Source: Candidatus Cryptobacteroides intestinipullorum (GTDB lineage: Bacteria; Bacteroidota; Bacteroidia; Bacteroidales; UBA932). From it: 32,227 nucleotides of DNA. Positions within the stretch are counted from its first letter, which is position 1, and every line of letters starts with the position of its first letter. Positions 4,185 to 30,826 of this stretch are shown in pieces. Where the stretch lies: positions 1 to 32,227 of the forward strand of contig DVIP01000170.1 of the NCBI GenBank assembly GCA_018711225.1, given 5' to 3'. The notes under the pieces are model-generated. The model saw only the letters and a program-made list of their open reading frames with translations. It ran no database searches and was not told the DNA's origin. The position numbers and the translations under genes are program-made.

Positions 4185-5927
4185 TTAAAAGTCATAACTG
4201 TATGTTGCCCTGATGTCTACTTCCCGAGCCGGTTCCATGAGATGAGGGTTGAATACCACATCCTCTGACGGGAAAGGAAGGGTGAAGCTGGATGCTGTCA
4301 CGTTAGGTGCCGGAGTATCCGAGTCATACCTCATGGTACTCTCGTCCACGGTCCAGTCACCGTTATTGTAATAGTTCTCGTAAAGTTCTCCGAGACCGTA
4401 CCATGAATTTCTCTTCTGGTTCCTGATTTCGTTTATGGCACCCTCCATGTCATAGTATGAGCGGCGAACGAAATCATACCAGCGGTCGCCCTCCAGTGCA
4501 AGTTCAAGCCGGCGCTCCTTCCAGACATCTTCCCAGGTCAGGACACCGGAAGTGTTTTCCGATGCACCTGCACGGCGGCGGACCCTGTTGTATGCCTCGA
4601 TGGCTGTCTCGTCGGATGTAGTCTGTGAAGGCCCCATCTTGGCCTCGGCATATATCAGAAGCACATCGGCGAAACGGAGAAGATGCGTTGCAAGCCCGGA
4701 AGCCATGTTGGATGCACTCGTACCGAGACCGGCCACATGGTCGGCCTGACGGCCGGTAAGGTGTTTCACGGCATTCGCTCCGGTAGGAGACTGGAACTGT
4801 CCGCTCGGACCGCCCTTGCCGTAGTCTTCCGAATCATAGATGAAACGCAGATAGTCGAAACCGCCCTTGTCAGTCCAGAAATAATCGTATGTGTCACCTG
4901 CCATCATCATGGTAGCCTTGCGGCGTGAATCCGCCTCTGAGACACGCTCGGCAGGATTCTGGAGAGGGTCCACACCGAAAGCCTCCTGAAGGTCCACTGA
5001 CGGTCCGCGCCATCCGCCCCAGCAGTTTTCCTCGAAATCGGAGAATCCCGTCAGAGCCAGATCAGGCTGGAGGCTGTTCTGCTGTGTCCACGGATTACGT
5101 CCGGCAGACCACTGCCATGATATGAGGCATTCCTGGTTGATATTGTTTGCCAGACGGAAGATATCAGAGTAGACAGGCATGAGGTCACGCCCTGAGTTCT
5201 GTATCACATCCCATGCGTAGGCGGCCGCCTTCGAGAGATCATCGGCGCTCAAAGTGCCTGAAAGCCCGGCCCTGGTCAGATACACCTTGGCGAGAAGGGC
5301 CTCGGCAGCATAGTAGTCTATTCGTCCGTCTGCATTGACACCTGAATGAGGAAGCAGCTCCATGGCCTTTTCGAGGGTCATAATGATGTACTCGTAGACA
5401 TTGGCACGGGTGACCTTGTACAGGTTGTTGTAGTCACCGGACACGATAAGGTCGGTATTGTTGTGAACGATAGGCACTTCGCCGAATGTACGCACCATGT
5501 AGAAGTATGCGAATGCCTTCCATGTCAGGGCCTCGCCGATACACTGGTTTTTCACTTCCTGTGAAGGTCCTTCGGAATTGAGGATATTGTCTATCACCGT
5601 ATTGGCATGGCCGTTCACAGACCAGAGGGAATAGGACATGTTCACCAGGTCCACATCCGTGCCGTTCACGGAAAGGTCCAGATACTGGCTTTCTCCCATA
5701 TAGAGATTTCCCGACATGACCTCGGCCACCCAGAGAAATGCCCTCTGGAAGTCGTACCACGGCGAATTGTACAGATAGTTCACTCCCTGGATGCACTGAT
5801 CGTCATTCTGGTAGAAATTCGATACATTGTAGGTATCTTCGGCAGGACGGTTCAGGAAATCGCTGCATGATGCGGCTCCTGTGAGAAGAACGCCTGCCAG
5901 TGCAATTTTTATGATATCGTATTTCAT
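4185..5927 (-). CDS. susD: SusD/RagB family nutrient-binding outer membrane lipoprotein
   Basis: Lipobox AASCSDFLNRPAEDTY; C-terminal 'VWKERRLELALEGDRWYDFVRRS' SusD signature; directly follows susC. Confidence 0.95.
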   Translation of the reverse strand: MKYDIIKIALAGVLLTGAASCSDFLNRPAEDTYNVSNFYQNDDQCIQGVNYLYNSPWYDFQRAFLWVAEVMSGNLYMGESQYLDLSVNGTDVDLVNMSYSLWSVNGHANTVIDNILNSEGPSQEVKNQCIGEALTWKAFAYFYMVRTFGEVPIVHNNTDLIVSGDYNNLYKVTRANVYEYIIMTLEKAMELLPHSGVNADGRIDYYAAEALLAKVYLTRAGLSGTLSADDLSKAAAYAWDVIQNSGRDLMPVYSDIFRLANNINQECLISWQWSAGRNPWTQQNSLQPDLALTGFSDFEENCWGGWRGPSVDLQEAFGVDPLQNPAERVSEADSRRKATMMMAGDTYDYFWTDKGGFDYLRFIYDSEDYGKGGPSGQFQSPTGANAVKHLTGRQADHVAGLGTSASNMASGLATHLLRFADVLLIYAEAKMGPSQTTSDETAIEAYNRVRRRAGASENTSGVLTWEDVWKERRLELALEGDRWYDFVRRSYYDMEGAINEIRNQKRNSWYGLGELYENYYNNGDWTVDESTMRYDSDTPAPNVTASSFTLPFPSEDVVFNPHLMEPAREVDIRATYSYDF

Positions 5928-5946
5928 TTTTATGCTCCTATTAAAA

Positions 5947-8900
5947 TTAGAATGTGATATTCAAACCTACAGAGTATGTTGTAGGGCTCGGGTAACGCCC
6001 GTTGTCCACGCCATACGTAAGTCCTGCCGAATCCTGAGTGCTCGCACCGATTTCCGGGTCATATCCCGAATAATTGGTGAAAGTATAGAGGTTCTGTATG
6101 TTGCAGTATATGCGGAGGTTCTCGATTCTGGCCTTGGACAGCCACTTCTTGGGGAAGGTGTAGCCCAGAGTGATGTTCTTGATACGGAGGTATGAACCGT
6201 CCTCGATGTATCTGTCGCTCATGCGGTCATTGTCGTTAGGGTCGTTGATTGACGCGCGAGGGGTCTTGGTACCGGAATTGGCTACCTTGACATTGGTGAT
6301 GTCATCATACCAGTTCGAGCCGTCCTCATATACCTTGTCGGCATCTATAGGCACGAGCTTCGCCCTGTCGGAAACGGAGTTGAGCTGGTTGGTCCATGCG
6401 CTGTTCATGTGCGTAAGGGTGATAGAATTGTAGTTCAGCACCTTGTTCCCGTAAGACCCGTTCAGGAATATGCTCAGGTCGAAATTCTTGTAATAGAAGC
6501 TGTTTGTCCATCCGAAGGTGAATACCGGAAGCGGAGAACCGAGGTTCACGCGGTCGTTCTCGTCGATGACTCCGTCACCTGCGTCCGCCACTCCGTCGCC
6601 GTCAGTATCAACGGTCAGCTGGTCCTTGTACTTGATATCGCCCACCCAGACGGTATTGGTTCTGTTGAACACCCCGTCGGCAGGATAGGATGACGGCTTC
6701 GGAGAGTTCTGGATATCTTCCAGAGACTCGTACACGCCTTCCACTTCATAGCCGTAGAAATTGTACAGGGATTCTCCTACCGTAGACATGGACACCACAT
6801 CGTTGTACTGTCCGTACCCTACCAGCGCGGCATTTTCCGTTCCGGAGAGGGAGAGAAGCTTGTTCTTGTTGAATGAAATCTGGAAATTGCTGTCCCATGA
6901 GAATTTGCCCTGGACAGGATGCGCGTCGAGGGTTATTTCAAGTCCCCTGTTCTCTATGCTGCCGTAGTTTCCCTTAGGTGCGGCAAGTACTGAGGATATG
7001 TTACCCTGCGTTCCCATGTAGGAAGGAAGCTGCATGGACATGAGCATGTCATCGGAACGTTTCAGATACGCATCCACGATAAGGTTCAGCCTGTCATCGA
7101 AGAATCCGAGGTCGAGACCGATGTTCCACTGTGACTGGGATTCCCATCTGATACCTGTATTAGGTATGTTGGACGGTCTGTAGCCCATTCCCAGGCCGGT
7201 AGGCATCCTGCTTATGGCAGAGCCCCATGCGTATGCGCCGATATTTGCGTTTCCTGTCTGTCCCCAGCCCACACGGAGTTTTCCGTTGCTGATGACATCC
7301 CTCACGCTCTCGAAGAATTTCTCGTTCGAGAATCTCCATGAAGCGGCTACGGAATGGAATCCAGCCCATCTGTTGTCGGGACCGAAGTTCGAGGAACCGT
7401 CATATCGGAAAGTATAGGTCAATAAGTAGCGGTCGTCATAGTTGTAGGTTTCACGTGTGAAGACGGACGCCATGGAAGAACTGCCGAATCCTGAAGATAT
7501 GACTGGAGTACCTGTTCCGAGAGCCGGATTGTGCACGGCATCGGAAGGAAGGCCGTTGTTGAACACGCTGGCGTTTTCATAACGGGATTCCCACATTTCA
7601 TGTCCGACCATCGCAGTCAGGCTGTGTTTTCCCCATGTATTGGAATAAGTGAGGTAATTTTTCAGCTGCCAGAACGTATTCTTGTTGTTCTGTATGCTGC
7701 TCTCGTTCGTCTCTCTGGTCCAGTTTCCGAAGTCGAGCATCGGCTTGTAGCGTTCAGCCTTGCTCCAGCCCAGATCAAAACCGAGTTCGGTATGCCATAC
7801 GAGGTGCTTTACCGGGGTGATGTCGGCGAAAATGCTTCCGGTAAGTTTCTGGCGGTTCAGCAGAATGTCATCCTCCATGGCTATTCCGATAGGGTTCGGA
7901 TTCGTGTTGTGCTCATCCACTATGGAGGCGTAGTTCCCGTCGAGATCATAGATAGGGATGTCCGGGCGTGTCGTAAGGGAGTAATAGATAAGTCCGGAAT
8001 TGGAATCGGCCAGTTTCAGGTCATCATTCGTGGTGGCGAATGTGACGTTCAGTCCGAGCTTTATCCATTTCTTGAGCTGGGCGTCGAGGTTCGTACGCAC
8101 ACTGAAACGGTCGAAGTTGCTGCCGATGATGGTTCCCTGCTGGTCCATGTAGGAACCGGACACATAATACTGCACCTTGTCCGTACCTCCGGATACTGAA
8201 ACCTGATGCTGGTGCTGGTAGGCCGTGCGGAAAATGGCATCCTGCCAGTTCGTGCCCTCTCCGAGAATGGACGGGTCCGAATAAATTTCGCTCGGGTCGG
8301 ACATCTCGCCCACTACGGCGAGGTCATTGTAGAACTCGGCGAACTCCCTGAGATTCATCATATCCAGACGCTTGTTCTGCTGCGAAACGGCGAACATTCC
8401 GTCATACGAAATCTTGGCTTCTCCGGCCTTTCCCCTCTTGGTGGTGATAAGAACCACTCCGTTCGCACCCTGGGCGCCGTAAATCGCTGTAGCCGACGCA
8501 TCCTTCAGGATTTCCATGCTCACGATATCGGCAGGGTTGATGGTAGACAGAGGCGATATGGTGGAAACCTTTCCGTTTCCCAAAGCGTCAGAGAGACCGA
8601 AATCCGCTCCGGATGAGCCTCCGCCCTGTACGATGACACCGTCTATCACATAGAGAGGTTCGGCATTGGCATTGATGGTAGCCTGGCCGCGGACACGGAT
8701 TGAAGATGAAGAACCCGGGGCACCGGATGTCGTCACTGCCGATACACCGGCCGCCCTTCCCTGGAGGGACTGGTCCAGCGATGATATGACCGAGCCTTTG
8801 AGAGCTTCTTCATTCACGGACACCGAAGCTCCGGAAAGGTCGCTCCTTTTCATCGTACCGTAACCTACGACTACCACTTCGTCAAGGAGTTCAGTATCCT

Positions 8901-9192
8901 GCGCGAGTGTGATGTTGTATACGGTCTGCGTCCCGGTGACCTGTATCTGGACAGTCTTGAATCCGATAGAAGACACATCCACAACGGAGCCCGCGCCCAC
9001 TTCCAGAATGTAGTTTCCATCAAGATCCGCAATGGCACCGTTCTGGGTACCGCTTTCTATGACACTTGCTCCGATCACCGGCTCGCCGGCTTCATCCAGG
9101 ATCTTGCCGGTAATCGTGACCTTCTGTCCCTGGGCCGACAGCGCAAGACAGAAAAAGAGCAATGCCACACTGACAATCAATTTACTCTTCAT
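5947..9192 (-). CDS. susC: SusC/RagA family TonB-dependent outer membrane transporter
   Basis: Signal peptide, carboxypeptidase-regulatory-like domain 'VTGKILDEAGEPVIGASVI', 'VVVGYGTMKRSDLSGA', plug 'ASATAIYGAQGANGVVLITTKRGK', C-terminal beta-barrel ending in F. Confidence 0.97.
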   Translation of the reverse strand: MKSKLIVSVALLFFCLALSAQGQKVTITGKILDEAGEPVIGASVIESGTQNGAIADLDGNYILEVGAGSVVDVSSIGFKTVQIQVTGTQTVYNITLAQDTELLDEVVVVGYGTMKRSDLSGASVSVNEEALKGSVISSLDQSLQGRAAGVSAVTTSGAPGSSSSIRVRGQATINANAEPLYVIDGVIVQGGGSSGADFGLSDALGNGKVSTISPLSTINPADIVSMEILKDASATAIYGAQGANGVVLITTKRGKAGEAKISYDGMFAVSQQNKRLDMMNLREFAEFYNDLAVVGEMSDPSEIYSDPSILGEGTNWQDAIFRTAYQHQHQVSVSGGTDKVQYYVSGSYMDQQGTIIGSNFDRFSVRTNLDAQLKKWIKLGLNVTFATTNDDLKLADSNSGLIYYSLTTRPDIPIYDLDGNYASIVDEHNTNPNPIGIAMEDDILLNRQKLTGSIFADITPVKHLVWHTELGFDLGWSKAERYKPMLDFGNWTRETNESSIQNNKNTFWQLKNYLTYSNTWGKHSLTAMVGHEMWESRYENASVFNNGLPSDAVHNPALGTGTPVISSGFGSSSMASVFTRETYNYDDRYLLTYTFRYDGSSNFGPDNRWAGFHSVAASWRFSNEKFFESVRDVISNGKLRVGWGQTGNANIGAYAWGSAISRMPTGLGMGYRPSNIPNTGIRWESQSQWNIGLDLGFFDDRLNLIVDAYLKRSDDMLMSMQLPSYMGTQGNISSVLAAPKGNYGSIENRGLEITLDAHPVQGKFSWDSNFQISFNKNKLLSLSGTENAALVGYGQYNDVVSMSTVGESLYNFYGYEVEGVYESLEDIQNSPKPSSYPADGVFNRTNTVWVGDIKYKDQLTVDTDGDGVADAGDGVIDENDRVNLGSPLPVFTFGWTNSFYYKNFDLSIFLNGSYGNKVLNYNSITLTHMNSAWTNQLNSVSDRAKLVPIDADKVYEDGSNWYDDITNVKVANSGTKTPRASINDPNDNDRMSDRYIEDGSYLRIKNITLGYTFPKKWLSKARIENLRIYCNIQNLYTFTNYSGYDPEIGASTQDSAGLTYGVDNGRYPSPTTYSVGLNITF

Positions 9193-9239: not shown

Positions 9240-11861
9240 TTATCTTCCGTTAATCAGGTTTCCGAAAAATGCGTCCCTGGCAGTCCACCATCCCGGTTCC
9301 GTCTCCACATGATGGCCGGAAAGAGGGAAGGTGACATAACTTTTCGACGAAGTTATCTGATTGTATCCCGCGAAATTGGTATGAGGCGGACAGACATCGT
9401 CCTGAAGTCCGAATCCCATGAGTACAGGACAAACGATTCTGTCCGTAAAGTTCTTCACGTCGAAATAGGAAAGCGTGCGGTAGAGTTCTTCATCAGAGAG
9501 GCCAAGCCTTTCAGCTTCAGCCAATACCGGTCCGGCAGGCCAGCCTGCAATCCTGAAATAGTCAGGAAAGTCCGAAAGGAAAGGCACGAACGGGGCTATG
9601 CCCTTTATTCTCCTGTCCAGGGAAGCCGAGACAAGCGTGAAGGCACCTCCCTGGCTGCCGCCCTCGGCGAAAATCCGGGATGTGTCGGCTTTCTCACGTG
9701 AAGCCGCGAAATCCACGGCCCTGACCACATCCATGAAAGCGCCTCTGTAATAATAAGTGTCCCTGTCCGCAAGTCCCCTGATCACCCAGTCGTCCTTTTC
9801 CCCGGGCTTGCGGTTCAGACCCTGGTTCCTGACACAGAGGGTGAACTCCGCAACCTCAGGACGAGCGGAAGGGTCGTTGTACCAGACCTCCGCCCCGTAG
9901 CCCATATAATTTATGAAAACAGGGTATCTGCCCTCCTTCACGGGCTCGATATAGATTCCGGATATGTCTTCACCTCCGAAGGATTTCATATCCACACGGT
10001 AGGTCCTCCGGATATCATTTGAACGTTCAGGTATGAGGGTCAGCCTGTATTCCGGCCTTACCGCGGCCAGCTCTTCGAGACTTTCCGCCCAGAAATCATC
10101 GAAATCCACGGGTTTGTCCTGCGGTGATATTATCTTTTCCGGATCGCAGCCGATATTGAAAGTCCCGACAGTCCTGTACCCGCCGTCACTTGCGTGGATA
10201 TTGTCATTGGAAGGTATATTGCCGCCGGCGGCAATATTGTCATTGACAGAAGTATTGCCGTTTACGGAATTATTGTCCTTTACGGAATTATTGTCCTTTA
10301 CGGAAATTATTGCCTTATAGAATCCAGGGTCGAGACGGAATCCGAATGAAAGGGTATCTGTCGCATGCCTACCCACCCCCAGAGGATTTTCAGATACCGA
10401 CACAGTGTCTCCGAGATCAGTCAGAAGGATGACTTTCAATCCCTTTTCGGATGTTCCAGAGGTCCTGACAGCTACCCTGAGGACAGCCTTCTCACCGGAA
10501 GAATACATCCAGTCGTTTTCAAGGACGGCGCTGGCGCTTATTCCGGAAATGCCGGACAGTTCTTCCACGGATTTTCTGACAAGCTCCACAGTGCTGCTGT
10601 CTGCCATGTATACCGAATTCAGTCCCTGCTGCTCCTGTGCGGGATCACCGCAATAGTCGTCTCCCGGTCTCCAGTATTCGTTCCCTGACTGGGATGCCGT
10701 TCCACCCCAGCCCCAGAAATTCGCCCCTGCAAGCAGCCCGCACTCACGTTTGGAATCCATGACACGACGGAATATGTGTGAATAATAAGTGTCGCGTGCG
10801 AATGTGGGTGTGCCTTTTTCGAATCTGAATCCGTCTCTCGGATATCCGAATTCCTCTATGACTACGGGCTTGCTGCATCTTCCGGCCACGGCCAGATGGG
10901 CGTCAATATATTCGTCTGTCTTCTCTATGGCTGACTGAAGGTCTTCCGAAACGGTGTTCCTGCCGGTCCAGCTCCAGTTGTAAGGCCAGACATGCACTGT
11001 AAGATAGTCTATATCGGGACATGAATGTATCTTCTCGTAAAGGCTGATATCGTTTTCGCATCCCCAGCTTCCTTCACTGCCTGCCGATACCATGTGGTTA
11101 GGATCAATGGACTTGATAAGTGCGGCGGACTCTGCAAGCCACTCTGCAAAAGCCGTCTTCACGCTGTCGTCTTCGGAAAAGCATCTCGGTTCGTTCGCTA
11201 TCTGCCAGGAGAAAATGGCCGGGTCCTCCCTGTAAGGAATCCCGGTAACGGTATTGGTACGTGAAACCACGGTCCGGATATGGTCGGCGAAAAGTTCCTT
11301 CGCCCTGTCGTCTGTCACGAACCGTGAAGCGTATTCCATGTATGCAGGCCACCCGTCGACGGAAGGGAGCACAGCCTTTCCGGCACCGGCCCACTCCAGG
11401 TATCTGGCATAGCCTCCGGACCATTCCCATGCGTTGTTCAGGTACAGTACGGCCGACATCTTGCGCTTTCCCATCTCGGCAAGCAGCCAGTCGAGTCCGC
11501 GGAAAACCGATTCATCATAGACACCGGCTTCTGTCTGAAGGCTCGGCTCTATCTGTGACGGAATCCCTGCCGGGCCGTCACCGCCGACAAGAATGCGCAG
11601 GTTATCTATTCCGAGTGACTTCAGGGAATCCAGTTCGGCAGAAAGCCTTTCCCTGTCCCCGAAGGCCGTTTCCGAACCGAGGATGGCCCCGTACCAGAAA
11701 TTGGCACCTATATAATAATAAGGAGAATTTTCCGACCAGCCTTCCGCAGGTATGAAATACCCGTCCGCCACACGGAAAAAACGGTTTTCAGGCTCCGTTC
11801 CCGAGCATGCCGCCAGGAACAGAACTGACAATAGTGTAAAAGGGAAGAATTTCAGTAACAT
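9240..11861 (-). CDS. Bimodular lipoprotein: GH5 (mannanase-like) catalytic domain fused to a C-terminal acetyl xylan esterase (CE7/AXE1-like) domain
   Basis: Lipobox AACSG. GH5 motifs 'FWYGAILGSE', 'NEPR' (acid/base) and 'VIEEFGYPR' (nucleophile). C-terminal 'DFDDFWAESLEEL', 'GGSQGG', 'GLQDDVCPP' and 'GHHVE' fit the Ser/Asp/His triad of CE7 esterases. Confidence 0.9.
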   Translation of the reverse strand: MLLKFFPFTLLSVLFLAACSGTEPENRFFRVADGYFIPAEGWSENSPYYYIGANFWYGAILGSETAFGDRERLSAELDSLKSLGIDNLRILVGGDGPAGIPSQIEPSLQTEAGVYDESVFRGLDWLLAEMGKRKMSAVLYLNNAWEWSGGYARYLEWAGAGKAVLPSVDGWPAYMEYASRFVTDDRAKELFADHIRTVVSRTNTVTGIPYREDPAIFSWQIANEPRCFSEDDSVKTAFAEWLAESAALIKSIDPNHMVSAGSEGSWGCENDISLYEKIHSCPDIDYLTVHVWPYNWSWTGRNTVSEDLQSAIEKTDEYIDAHLAVAGRCSKPVVIEEFGYPRDGFRFEKGTPTFARDTYYSHIFRRVMDSKRECGLLAGANFWGWGGTASQSGNEYWRPGDDYCGDPAQEQQGLNSVYMADSSTVELVRKSVEELSGISGISASAVLENDWMYSSGEKAVLRVAVRTSGTSEKGLKVILLTDLGDTVSVSENPLGVGRHATDTLSFGFRLDPGFYKAIISVKDNNSVKDNNSVNGNTSVNDNIAAGGNIPSNDNIHASDGGYRTVGTFNIGCDPEKIISPQDKPVDFDDFWAESLEELAAVRPEYRLTLIPERSNDIRRTYRVDMKSFGGEDISGIYIEPVKEGRYPVFINYMGYGAEVWYNDPSARPEVAEFTLCVRNQGLNRKPGEKDDWVIRGLADRDTYYYRGAFMDVVRAVDFAASREKADTSRIFAEGGSQGGAFTLVSASLDRRIKGIAPFVPFLSDFPDYFRIAGWPAGPVLAEAERLGLSDEELYRTLSYFDVKNFTDRIVCPVLMGFGLQDDVCPPHTNFAGYNQITSSKSYVTFPLSGHHVETEPGWWTARDAFFGNLINGR
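10216..10237. repeat. Perfect 22-bp palindrome ATATTGCCGCCGGCGGCAATAT inside the linker coding region
   Basis: 216-226 and 227-237 (of 10 kb block) are exact reverse complements. Confidence 0.9.
10225..10314 (-). repeat. 18-bp in-frame tandem repeat encoding an Asn/Ser/Asp-rich hexapeptide linker (SVKDNN-type) between GH5 and CE7 domains
   Basis: Two exact copies of tttacggaattattgtcc (10261-10278, 10279-10296) flanked by degenerate copies with period 18 (10243-10260, 10297-10314). Confidence 0.9.
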
Positions 11862-11893
11862 CCGAGCATCATCAATTTATGTGGTTGACGATG

Positions 11894-11925
11894 CAAAGGT
11901 ATCAAGACAGCGGCTGACAAACAAA
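11894..11925 (-). promoter_or_regulatory. Predicted Bacteroidetes-type promoter for the PUL operon (-33 TTTG, 20-nt spacer, -7 TACCTTTG)
   Basis: Minus strand reads TTTG-N20-TACCTTTG, matching the Bacteroides consensus TTTG / TAnnTTTG, 33 nt upstream of the GH5-CE7 start codon. Confidence 0.75.
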
Positions 11926-11940
11926 TACTAAGTTATCCAA

Positions 11941-11985
11941 TAATGATACTATACCACTACCTTAATGATACTATACCACTACCTT
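11941..11985. repeat. Perfect 22-bp tandem direct duplication (taatgatactataccactacct x2)
   Basis: 11941-11962 and 11963-11984 are identical. The second copy contains the araC stop codon; the array lies 15 nt upstream of the predicted -33 box. Confidence 0.95.
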
Positions 11986-12846
11986 GTTCTTTTTGTACAT
12001 GGCTCGGAACTCCTTAGGAGTGACTCCCCTGCGGGCCTTGAATATGCGGTTGAAATTCGAAAGATTGTTGAAGCCGCATTCGAAACATATCTCCGATATG
12101 TTCGTGGTAGTGTCCACCAGCTGCCGTGCGGCAAAGCCGAGCCTGATGTCCAGGATATAGTCGGAAAGGGTCTTACCTGTCCTGAGTTTGAAGAAACGGC
12201 TGAACGATGTGGGTGTCATTCCGACCATCGCTGCCAGATCTTCAAGTCTGAACGGTTCCTTATAGTGGTCGTTTATGAACTGCTTGACCTTCTGCACGCG
12301 GCGGCTTTCGGGGTTCCGCTCCGCGTGTGAAAAGGAACTACTGGCCAGAATCCTGTAGTCGCTTCCGGACAGGTTATACAGCAGTTTGAGGAACTTGAGA
12401 AACCTCATGAAACCCTCCTGGACGGAGGCCAGACCGTCTATCATGGAATACACTTTCATGATAGTATGCCTGGAGAAAGCCAGGCCGTGGTCCGCATCCC
12501 TGAACATTTTCATGATAGGTGCGAACTGGTTCTTCATCATCAGACTGCCGGAAAGCAGGTCGGGAGAAAACTGTATGGTCACCTCCCGGATGTCTCCGGA
12601 ACTGCATCTGCCGTTGTCCCAGGCATGTTCCAGATTTTCGGAGCATATCAGCACCAGGTCATAATCCCCGATTTCCTCTACGCTGTCGCCTACGATGCGC
12701 TTCACTCCGGCGGCATTCTCGATGAAATTAAGTTCATATTCCCTGTGCTGGTGCAGAGGATAGGTAAATTCCGTCTTGTGCCGGTCAACGATATAGAAAC
12801 AGTCCTTTTCGGACAGAGGCGTGATTTCTTCAAGTACTTCACTCAT
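11971..12846 (-). CDS. AraC family transcriptional regulator (cupin-like N-terminus, C-terminal HTH)
   Basis: 'VKQFINDHYKEPFRLEDLAAMVGMTPTSFSRFFKLRTGKTLSDYILDIRL...ISEICFECGFNNLSNFNRIFKARRGVTPKEFR' is a canonical AraC HTH. Confidence 0.95.
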   Translation of the reverse strand: MSEVLEEITPLSEKDCFYIVDRHKTEFTYPLHQHREYELNFIENAAGVKRIVGDSVEEIGDYDLVLICSENLEHAWDNGRCSSGDIREVTIQFSPDLLSGSLMMKNQFAPIMKMFRDADHGLAFSRHTIMKVYSMIDGLASVQEGFMRFLKFLKLLYNLSGSDYRILASSSFSHAERNPESRRVQKVKQFINDHYKEPFRLEDLAAMVGMTPTSFSRFFKLRTGKTLSDYILDIRLGFAARQLVDTTTNISEICFECGFNNLSNFNRIFKARRGVTPKEFRAMYKKNKVVV

Positions 12847-12977
12847 AATTATCGGCTATCAGTTTAAGGTCAACACAAAAATAGGAAACTTATACGCAAA
12901 ATGATACTTTTTTATCAATTATTTATTGTTAAGGAATAATTGTCATACCCCGGCAGATACCTTATAAATATTAATAT

Positions 12978-12985
12978 TACTTTTG
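12978..12985 (+). promoter_or_regulatory. Candidate -7 box (TACTTTTG) for the epimerase gene
   Basis: Exact match to TAnnTTTG about 73 nt upstream of the ATG; no clear -33 TTTG at the expected spacing. Confidence 0.4.
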
Positions 12986-13058: not shown

Positions 13059-14258
13059 ATGACAGATGCCAGGGCTATCAGAATGAGAGAGGAAATGCTC
13101 TCGGAACTCACGGAAGACATACTTCCCTTCTGGATGGACAGAATGAAGGATGAAAGGAACGGAGGCTTCGCGGCCAGAATCACGGGAAAAGGTGTGAAAG
13201 ACGAATGCGCCGAAAAAGGCGCCATACTGAATGCCAGAATCCTGTGGACATTTTCAGCCGCATACAGGGTGCTCGGAAAACAGGAATATCTGGAGACGGC
13301 CACACGCGCCAAAAGGGAAATAATCGACAGGTTCCATGACAAGACATACGGAGGGATATACTGGAGCCTGACACCTGACGGCAGGCCGTCCGACAGAAAA
13401 AAACAGATTTATGCCATCGGATTCGCCATTTACGGACTCAGCGAATACTGCAGGGCCACCGGGGATGCGGAAGCCCTTGAATATGCGGCAAAACTGTACC
13501 ACGACATCGAGGACCACAGTTTCGACCATGAGAGGAACGGGTATCTGGAAGCATTTGCAGAAGACTGGAGCCCGCTTCAGGACATGAGGCTGAGTGAAAA
13601 GGACATCAACGAATGCAAGACCATGAACACACACCTGCATATCCTCGAACCTTATACCGCGCTTTACAGGGTATGGAAGGATGAAGGTCTCAGGGAAAGG
13701 CTTGAAAACCTCATACGTCTGTTCACGGAAAAGATAATGTCTCCGGAGACAGGACATCTGAGGCTCTTTTTCGACGAGAACTGGGTCAGCAGCCATGACA
13801 TAATATCATACGGGCACGACATTGAGGCTTCGTGGCTCATCCATGAGGCCGCCTCGGTACTGGAAGATCCCGAACTCATGTCAGCGACGGCACCAGCAAT
13901 AAAGACCATCGCGGAGGCTGCTTCAGAGGGATATGTACCCGGCGGCGGGATGATATACGAATTTCACGGAGACACGGGAGCGATAGATGCGGACAGACAC
14001 TGGTGGGTTCAGGCTGAAACCGTCGTGGGTTATTTCAATCTGTGGCAGCTTGCGGGAAGGGAAGACGCTCTGGAAAAAGCCTGCGGATGCTGGGAGTTCA
14101 TCAAACGCCATATCATAGACCGGGAAAACGGAGAATGGTTCTGGAGCCTGCGCGCAGACGGTACCGCCAACACTGACGACGACAAGGCCGGATTCTGGAA
14201 ATGCCCTTACCACAACAGCCGCATGTGCCTGGAAATCATAGAAAGGGCATCCGTCTGA
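13059..14258 (+). CDS. AGE family cellobiose/mannobiose 2-epimerase
   Basis: 'NTHLHILEPYTALYRVW', 'DADRHWWVQAETVVGYFNLWQ', 'KCPYHNSRMCLEI' motifs of cellobiose 2-epimerase; neighbours a mannanase PUL. Confidence 0.88.
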   Translation: MTDARAIRMREEMLSELTEDILPFWMDRMKDERNGGFAARITGKGVKDECAEKGAILNARILWTFSAAYRVLGKQEYLETATRAKREIIDRFHDKTYGGIYWSLTPDGRPSDRKKQIYAIGFAIYGLSEYCRATGDAEALEYAAKLYHDIEDHSFDHERNGYLEAFAEDWSPLQDMRLSEKDINECKTMNTHLHILEPYTALYRVWKDEGLRERLENLIRLFTEKIMSPETGHLRLFFDENWVSSHDIISYGHDIEASWLIHEAASVLEDPELMSATAPAIKTIAEAASEGYVPGGGMIYEFHGDTGAIDADRHWWVQAETVVGYFNLWQLAGREDALEKACGCWEFIKRHIIDRENGEWFWSLRADGTANTDDDKAGFWKCPYHNSRMCLEIIERASV

Positions 14259-25574: not shown

Positions 25575-25722
25575 TTCTCCTCCTCTACTTAAACCGCCGC
25601 ACCATTGCAGCTGACGGCAAAAGTATAACACGGCCAGGAAAAAGGTTTATCGAAAAAGAAAAAAGACTTTGCAGAAAAAGAAAATCCTTGCAGGAAAAGA
25701 AATTCCATTCCGTACTTCCGTT

Positions 25723-28560: not shown

Positions 28561-28642
28561 CCTATAAAAATTTCCGATTGATACTTAATTTTCCTAATTT
28601 TGCCGGCTTGTAACCGGCAACCGACAAAGATAATCATTTATC

Positions 28643-30731: not shown

Positions 30732-30826
30732 AGATAAAGTCTTATTTCCGACAAATTTAGAAAAAAGTCACCAACTTTCCATACCCTCAGGCCCCAAATA
30801 TTGCCCAAATATTGCACTGCCGGCAC

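Follow-up and report, generated by a model that had tools for sequence, protein, structure and literature searches.

The window (the whole 32,227-nt stretch analysed, contig DVIP01000170.1 of Candidatus Cryptobacteroides intestinipullorum) carries a minus-strand PUL, the gene of an AraC/XylS-type regulator preceding it on the same strand, and a divergent epimerase gene on the plus strand. The features considered here are the following.

4185..9192, minus strand: susC (5947-9192; TIGR04056, 919 bits) and susD (4185-5927; SusD_RagB)
9240..11861, minus strand: lipoprotein with GH5-like and CE7 (AXE1) domains, first PUL gene (Pfam AXE1, 1.7e-58; Cellulase, 3e-4)
11894..11901, minus strand: -7 element of the PUL promoter, TACCTTTG, 28 nt from the AGTAT of half-site 2
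11922..11925, minus strand: -33 element of the PUL promoter, TTTG, inside half-site 2
11922..11937, minus strand: putative half-site 2, promoter-proximal, GATAACTTAGTATTTG, an exact fit to GnTAA-N4-GTATTTG that includes the -33 TTTG
11943..11950, minus strand: core of putative half-site 1, AGTATCAT, 21 bp upstream of half-site 2
11941..11984, no strand assigned: perfect 22-bp tandem duplication (sequence search and Tandem Repeats Finder)
11965..11972, minus strand: extra, third AGTATCAT resulting from the duplication, 22 bp upstream of half-site 1 and overlapping the araC stop
11971..12846, minus strand: AraC/XylS-type regulator, 291 aa (Pfam HTH_18, 8.8e-23)
12876..12883, minus strand: -7 element of araC, TATTTTTG, 25 nt from the AGTAT of the araC-upstream site
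12901..12916, minus strand: araC-upstream site, GATAAAAAAGTATCAT, a putative lone half-site in the promoter of araC itself; the epimerase -7 element is 77 bp away
12978..12985, plus strand: -7 element of the epimerase gene, TACTTTTG
13059..14258, plus strand: cellobiose/mannobiose 2-epimerase-like protein (Pfam GlcNAc_2-epim, 1.6e-43)

Further genes of the locus encode a TIG/SGBP-B protein and an additional TIG protein. Taken together, the GH5 domain, the CE7 domain and the epimerase suggest that the substrate of this PUL is acetylated (gluco)mannan. The epimerase scores 359 bits against the NCBIfam EpiA model, under its cut-off of 800 bits. A 785-aa PUL protein encoded at 472-2829 exhibits a TIG domain only, with no match to a glycosidase family in Pfam or NCBIfam. 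Within the GH5-CE7 gene, an 18-bp tandem repeat (10235-10316; 4.6 copies, 86%) encodes a repeated SVxDN-like linker joining the two catalytic domains.

The regulator exhibits the C-terminal double-HTH domain of the AraC/XylS family (HTH_18, 80.8 bits, residues 204-282). No Pfam match at 1e-3 was obtained before residue 204. With the HTH domain alone, and no kinase or receiver domain found by Pfam in its 291 aa, the protein does not have the composition of an HTCS. Its PDB matches are RamA, AraC, MarA and XylR, and among the closest solved chains are RamA and a hybrid two-component system protein.

The 22-bp tandem duplication at the araC stop

A protein search (E <= 1e-40) covering 200 genomes of the same genus found araC orthologues in 97 of them; others came from 80 GTDB loci and from a DNA search of 400 genomes. 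With additional regions included, the set comprised 229 loci, which yielded 150 non-redundant orthologues with at least 48% identity. The gene order, araC followed by GH5-CE7 and susC, is widely kept among these relatives.

The sequence TAATGATACTATACCACTACCT is present as two perfectly tandem copies, at 11941-11962 and 11963-11984 (Tandem Repeats Finder: 11941-11985, period 22, 100% match), confirming the direct repeat overlapping the araC stop that an initial annotation of this DNA had described. Allowing three mismatches reveals no further occurrence in the window, and the number of matches expected from dinucleotide shuffles is 0.00. Because the minus-strand araC ORF ends at 11971, its stop codon (11971-11973) is inside the araC-proximal copy (11963-11984), and the other copy (11941-11962), on the side of the PUL promoter, falls past the stop. 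The description of the "proximal" copy as the one carrying the stop is accurate if proximal refers to araC, but not if it refers to the PUL promoter.

The same annotation had taken the two copies for the half-sites of the regulator's operator, and had set a comparison of this junction among relatives as the test of that reading. A 22-bp tandem duplication at the araC stop is retained in none of the 149 other non-redundant orthologues. Since the duplication is absent from the other orthologues sharing the same araC-PUL pair, it is itself not the operator; the 22-bp repeat was discarded in that role, and the conserved pair is instead AGTATCAT plus AGTATTTG. At 83-87% protein identity, the nearest orthologues keep a single copy of the shared element and have no 22-bp duplication. 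Two close relatives, L004 and L036, exhibit the same junction with one copy and the conserved AGTATTTG 21 bp off; in L004, where the junction reads ...gttgtagtatagTATCATTATCGGATAATTAAGTATTTGTTTG...TACCTTTG, the araC stop already overlaps the element. Among the 150, one other locus (L226) has a tandem duplication, an unrelated one of 13 bp located further downstream and not at the stop.

The duplication, being found in the window alone among the 150 orthologues, is best read as a derived event of one lineage. Other short tandem duplications occur in the window at 25669-25706 (19 bp, two copies) and 30793-30815 (11 bp, 2.1 copies), so that slippage would suffice as an explanation. As far as the sequences tell, the duplication is incidental, adding to the conserved operator only one further AGTATCAT, 22 bp upstream. 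A third core at this 22-bp offset scores 8/8 in the window alone among the orthologues compared, its nearest analogues being found in L020 (7/8 at 23 bp) and in the Alistipes loci L073 and L074 (6/8 at 21 bp).

A two-half-site element at the PUL promoter

The element common to the orthologues reads, on the minus strand, GnTAA-N4-GTATCA and, 21 bp on, GnTAA-N4-GTATTTG. Its AGTAT starts in the window are 11950 and 11929 (minus strand), 21 bp apart. The second of these half-sites, AGTATTTG (minus strand, 11929-11922), was overlooked in the initial annotation and is the better-conserved half of the operator. We scored the half-sites AAAGTATCAT and ATAGTATTTG at 24 spacings (12 to 35), with a maximum score of 20. 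For the 109 non-redundant PUL-adjacent orthologues a spacing of 21 gives a unique peak, with a mean of 15.12/20 versus about 12-13.75 elsewhere; for loci without a detected PUL gene there is only a faint rise, at the 21-bp spacing. The arrangement is that of a direct-repeat operator with two half-sites about 21 bp apart.

Aligned, 91 of the operators give the column profile GttaAAAaaGTATCAtTaTTnGaTAAaTTtGTATTTGTttg-N16-TAnnTTTGC. In half-site 2 the GTATTTG positions are conserved in 67-98% of these operators and the G at +13 in 99%. Both this G and the TAA at +15 to +17 (79-93%) were unused in the search, and their strong conservation across the 91 loci indicates that each half-site fits GnTAA-N4-GTAT. 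The two blocks of this motif are separated by about one helical turn, the layout expected for the double-HTH domain of an AraC protein. The element is still present in homologues from Paludibacter and Phocaeicola with 49-54% protein identity. A downstream PUL gene is found at 91 of 98 loci with the operator versus 17 of 49 without it (p=1.5e-13), and the operator co-occurs with the araC-upstream site (p=3e-5); both values ignore phylogeny and, the loci being related, are too small. Seventeen PUL-adjacent orthologues have no recognised operator.

The PUL promoter, TTTG-N20-TACCTTTG, is of Bacteroidetes type and is located as previously claimed, with 15 nt between the 22-bp repeat and TTTG. A -7 element of the form TAnnTTTG begins exactly 28 nt after the second AGTAT start in 92 of the 109 PUL-adjacent orthologues, in which the -33 TTTG and the N20 up to the -7 element are likewise conserved. 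The proximal half-site thus covers the -33/-35 region at a fixed distance from the -7 element, the geometry of a class II site. Very probably, an AraC operator of direct half-sites lies next to the -33 element upstream of GH5-CE7/susCD. The initial annotation had the place and the kind of this operator right, as well as its direct half-sites two turns apart, but not the bases that it assigned to them. Nor is the supposed embedding of the operator in the 3' end of araC a general property: in most relatives the operator starts between 2 nt before and about 70 nt after the araC stop. As for the window, araC coding sequence or its copy stands in place of the GnTAA box of half-site 1, and the duplicated third core shares this defect.

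The araC promoter, the epimerase gene and the extent of the regulon

A partial match to the repeat, AATGATACT at 12900-12908, had been proposed to link the epimerase to the same regulon. This match is real and conserved, being part of GATAAAAAAGTATCAT, the best-conserved feature upstream of araC, which is conserved as TGttAAAAAAGTATCA in 99 orthologues. The site lies 22-26 nt before the araC -7 element at most loci with a recognised -7 element. Because it occupies the usual -33 position, autoregulation of araC is likely. The profile of the 99 loci exhibits no conserved second half-site 21 bp from it. Eight araC orthologues of about 65-68% identity (L018, L021, L025, L134, L136, L139, L140 and L142) have no PUL after them and no downstream operator, and in the six scanned upstream (L018, L134, L136, L139, L140 and L142) the araC-upstream site is missing as well. 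The regulator in such non-PUL orthologues (L018, L021, L025, L134 and the like) may have a new target.

The distance from the araC-upstream site to the epimerase -7 element is 77 bp in the window. Forty loci combine an adjacent epimerase gene with a distance in the range 50-105. One of them is at 56, 14 are at 64-67, 22 at 76-79, two at 87 and one at 100, with none between these groups; at four loci left out of this set the nearest -7-like match is at 26, 28, 183 or 267. The distance thus varies by whole helical turns, as for a class I site, the exceptions being L075, at 100, and a few loci in which the -7 element is unclear. The pattern is much weaker when distances are measured to the start codon of the epimerase gene instead. 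On the araC tree, at least 11 changes of distance class occur. The helical phase was first noticed post hoc on 31 loci; a further 14, added after that, agree with it (mean cosine 0.83, p about 1e-5 on the assumption that the loci are independent). For all loci, p is 2e-5 with 11 effective events and 3e-4 with eight. Helical phasing, with the site facing the same side of the helix, favours the earlier suggestion that the epimerase belongs to the same regulon, and the bound AraC is a probable class I regulator of the epimerase promoter as well.

The regulon appears to be local, comprising the PUL, araC and the epimerase gene. No other exact or one-mismatch match to AGTATCAT-N13-AGTATTTG was found in the 87%-complete genome, and control patterns gave as many weak matches as this one. 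The shorter GnTAA-N3-AGTATCA has one other exact match in the genome, within an ORF, and a one-mismatch match at 28579-28593, between the genes of a TPR protein and a peptidase, that is within chance numbers. A wider regulon was accordingly rejected, the remaining pattern matches being inside an ORF or within chance numbers. Very probably, then, this regulator controls its own gene, the epimerase gene and an operon for the digestion of a plant polysaccharide, which is probably mannan.

Proposed mechanism and comparison with known systems

We hold with considerable confidence that this locus carries a two-half-site AraC operator, acting as a class II site at the PUL, together with autoregulation and control of the epimerase gene, and that a lineage-specific slippage duplication came on top. 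It is put forward as the best explanation of the observed sequences, spacings, conservation and phasing, and of the absence of the duplication elsewhere; AraC as the binder, the sign of regulation and the ligand are inferences. Most likely, two subunits of the AraC protein encoded by the adjacent gene would occupy the 21-bp operator, both on one face of the DNA. In the presence of a glycan ligand, the protein, whose promoter-proximal half-site overlaps the -33 element, would contact RNA polymerase and act as a class II activator of the GH5-CE7/susCD promoter. Very probably it would also bind the single site at 12916-12901 in its own promoter, resulting in autoregulation, and from there would act on the divergent epimerase promoter at the helically phased distance. 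Recent slippage would have copied half-site 1 and the end of araC, generating a third, possibly weak, half-site in near-phase. In a bolder version, which we regard as rather unlikely, one site in the araC promoter serves two divergent promoters, with the epimerase held at whole-turn distances of 56, 66, 77 or 87 bp through evolution, and the duplication of this lineage creates a three-half-site array at the PUL with altered induction.

That the two 22-bp copies are the two half-sites of the operator, held by selection, is scarcely credible: each copy does contain one AGTATCAT core and a spacing of 22 is near two helical turns, but no other of the 150 non-redundant orthologues is duplicated, and L004 and L036 are single-copy with AGTATTTG 21 bp away. 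The duplication might alternatively be adaptive, the third half-site raising AraC occupancy and making up for the degraded GnTAA box that half-site 1 has at the overlap between operator and araC end. Half-site 1 of the window indeed has no GnTAA box, the extra core is 22 bp on and in near-phase, and the Alistipes loci L073 and L074 have a 6/8 third core at 21 bp. However, L004 and L036 have the same overlap and no third core, selection is not assessable from a single lineage, and short tandem duplications occur elsewhere in the window; we therefore consider an adaptive origin unlikely. An assembly error is highly improbable. The duplication comes from a single metagenome-assembled genome of 187 contigs, and a second genome of the species was not found, but its surroundings align normally to relatives and 44 bp of tandem repeat would fit within typical reads and k-mers. 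Finally, the conserved element could be bound by a regulator other than the adjacent AraC, for instance a global sugar regulator. We judge this very unlikely, given that the site occurs at both ends of araC and tracks araC across genera, that the sole exact full operator of the 87%-complete genome is at this locus (the one other GnTAA-N3-AGTATCA lying in an ORF), and that direct repeats 21 bp apart have been published as characteristic of the AraC-type domains of Bacteroides (PMC3878776).

The proposed AraC-based mechanism has parallels in known systems. At class II sites of Escherichia coli AraC and RhaS, two direct half-sites are about 21 bp apart, the proximal one over a -35-like element, and the regulator gene is divergent and autoregulated. 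The present locus resembles these in the half-site spacing, in the proximal half-site on a -35-like element and in its divergent, putatively autoregulated araC. Unlike them, it has a -33/-7 Bacteroidetes promoter, and its PUL operator is downstream of araC, outside the divergent region. In Bacteroides, the published motifs of AraC-type HTCS lie in the promoters of operons for polysaccharide utilization and consist of two directly repeated sites at a spacing of about 21 bp; binding of a dimer on one DNA face has been proposed (Ravcheev et al. 2013, PMC3878776). The 21-bp direct repeat, the PUL promoter and the AraC-type DNA-binding domain are shared with those operators (PMC3878776). In contrast, the regulator here is a one-component AraC of 291 aa, with no kinase or receiver domain found, and its own promoter has a single site. 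The likeness drawn here between GnTAA-N4-GTATC and the HTCS motifs is one of spacing (PMC3878776). CgrA, an AraC-family positive regulator of the carrageenan regulon of Zobellia as shown by deletion, likewise belongs to a polysaccharide locus of Bacteroidetes; however, the substrate differs, the CgrA cluster is without susCD, and the available part of that report gives no CgrA operator (PMC5698469).

Literature searches on mannan/glucomannan PULs with AraC returned nothing about this regulator, those on binding assays found none, and those on PUL regulation in Cryptobacteroides returned nothing relevant. The predicted binding motif, GnTAA-N4-GTATC doubled at 21 bp, is precise and, with the promoter geometry, testable. 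It concerns one-component AraC regulators that form a large group and belong to probable mannan-type PULs, both in Cryptobacteroides-like Bacteroidales and outside them; their hosts are mostly uncultured gut bacteria with little-studied PUL regulation. In the whole-turn steps between the site and the epimerase promoter, evolution has left an unusually clean trace of helical phasing at a promoter in bacteria.

A minor observation concerns the weak AGTAT-like third core upstream of the operator in the Alistipes loci L073 and L074, which possibly represents an independent three-half-site array.
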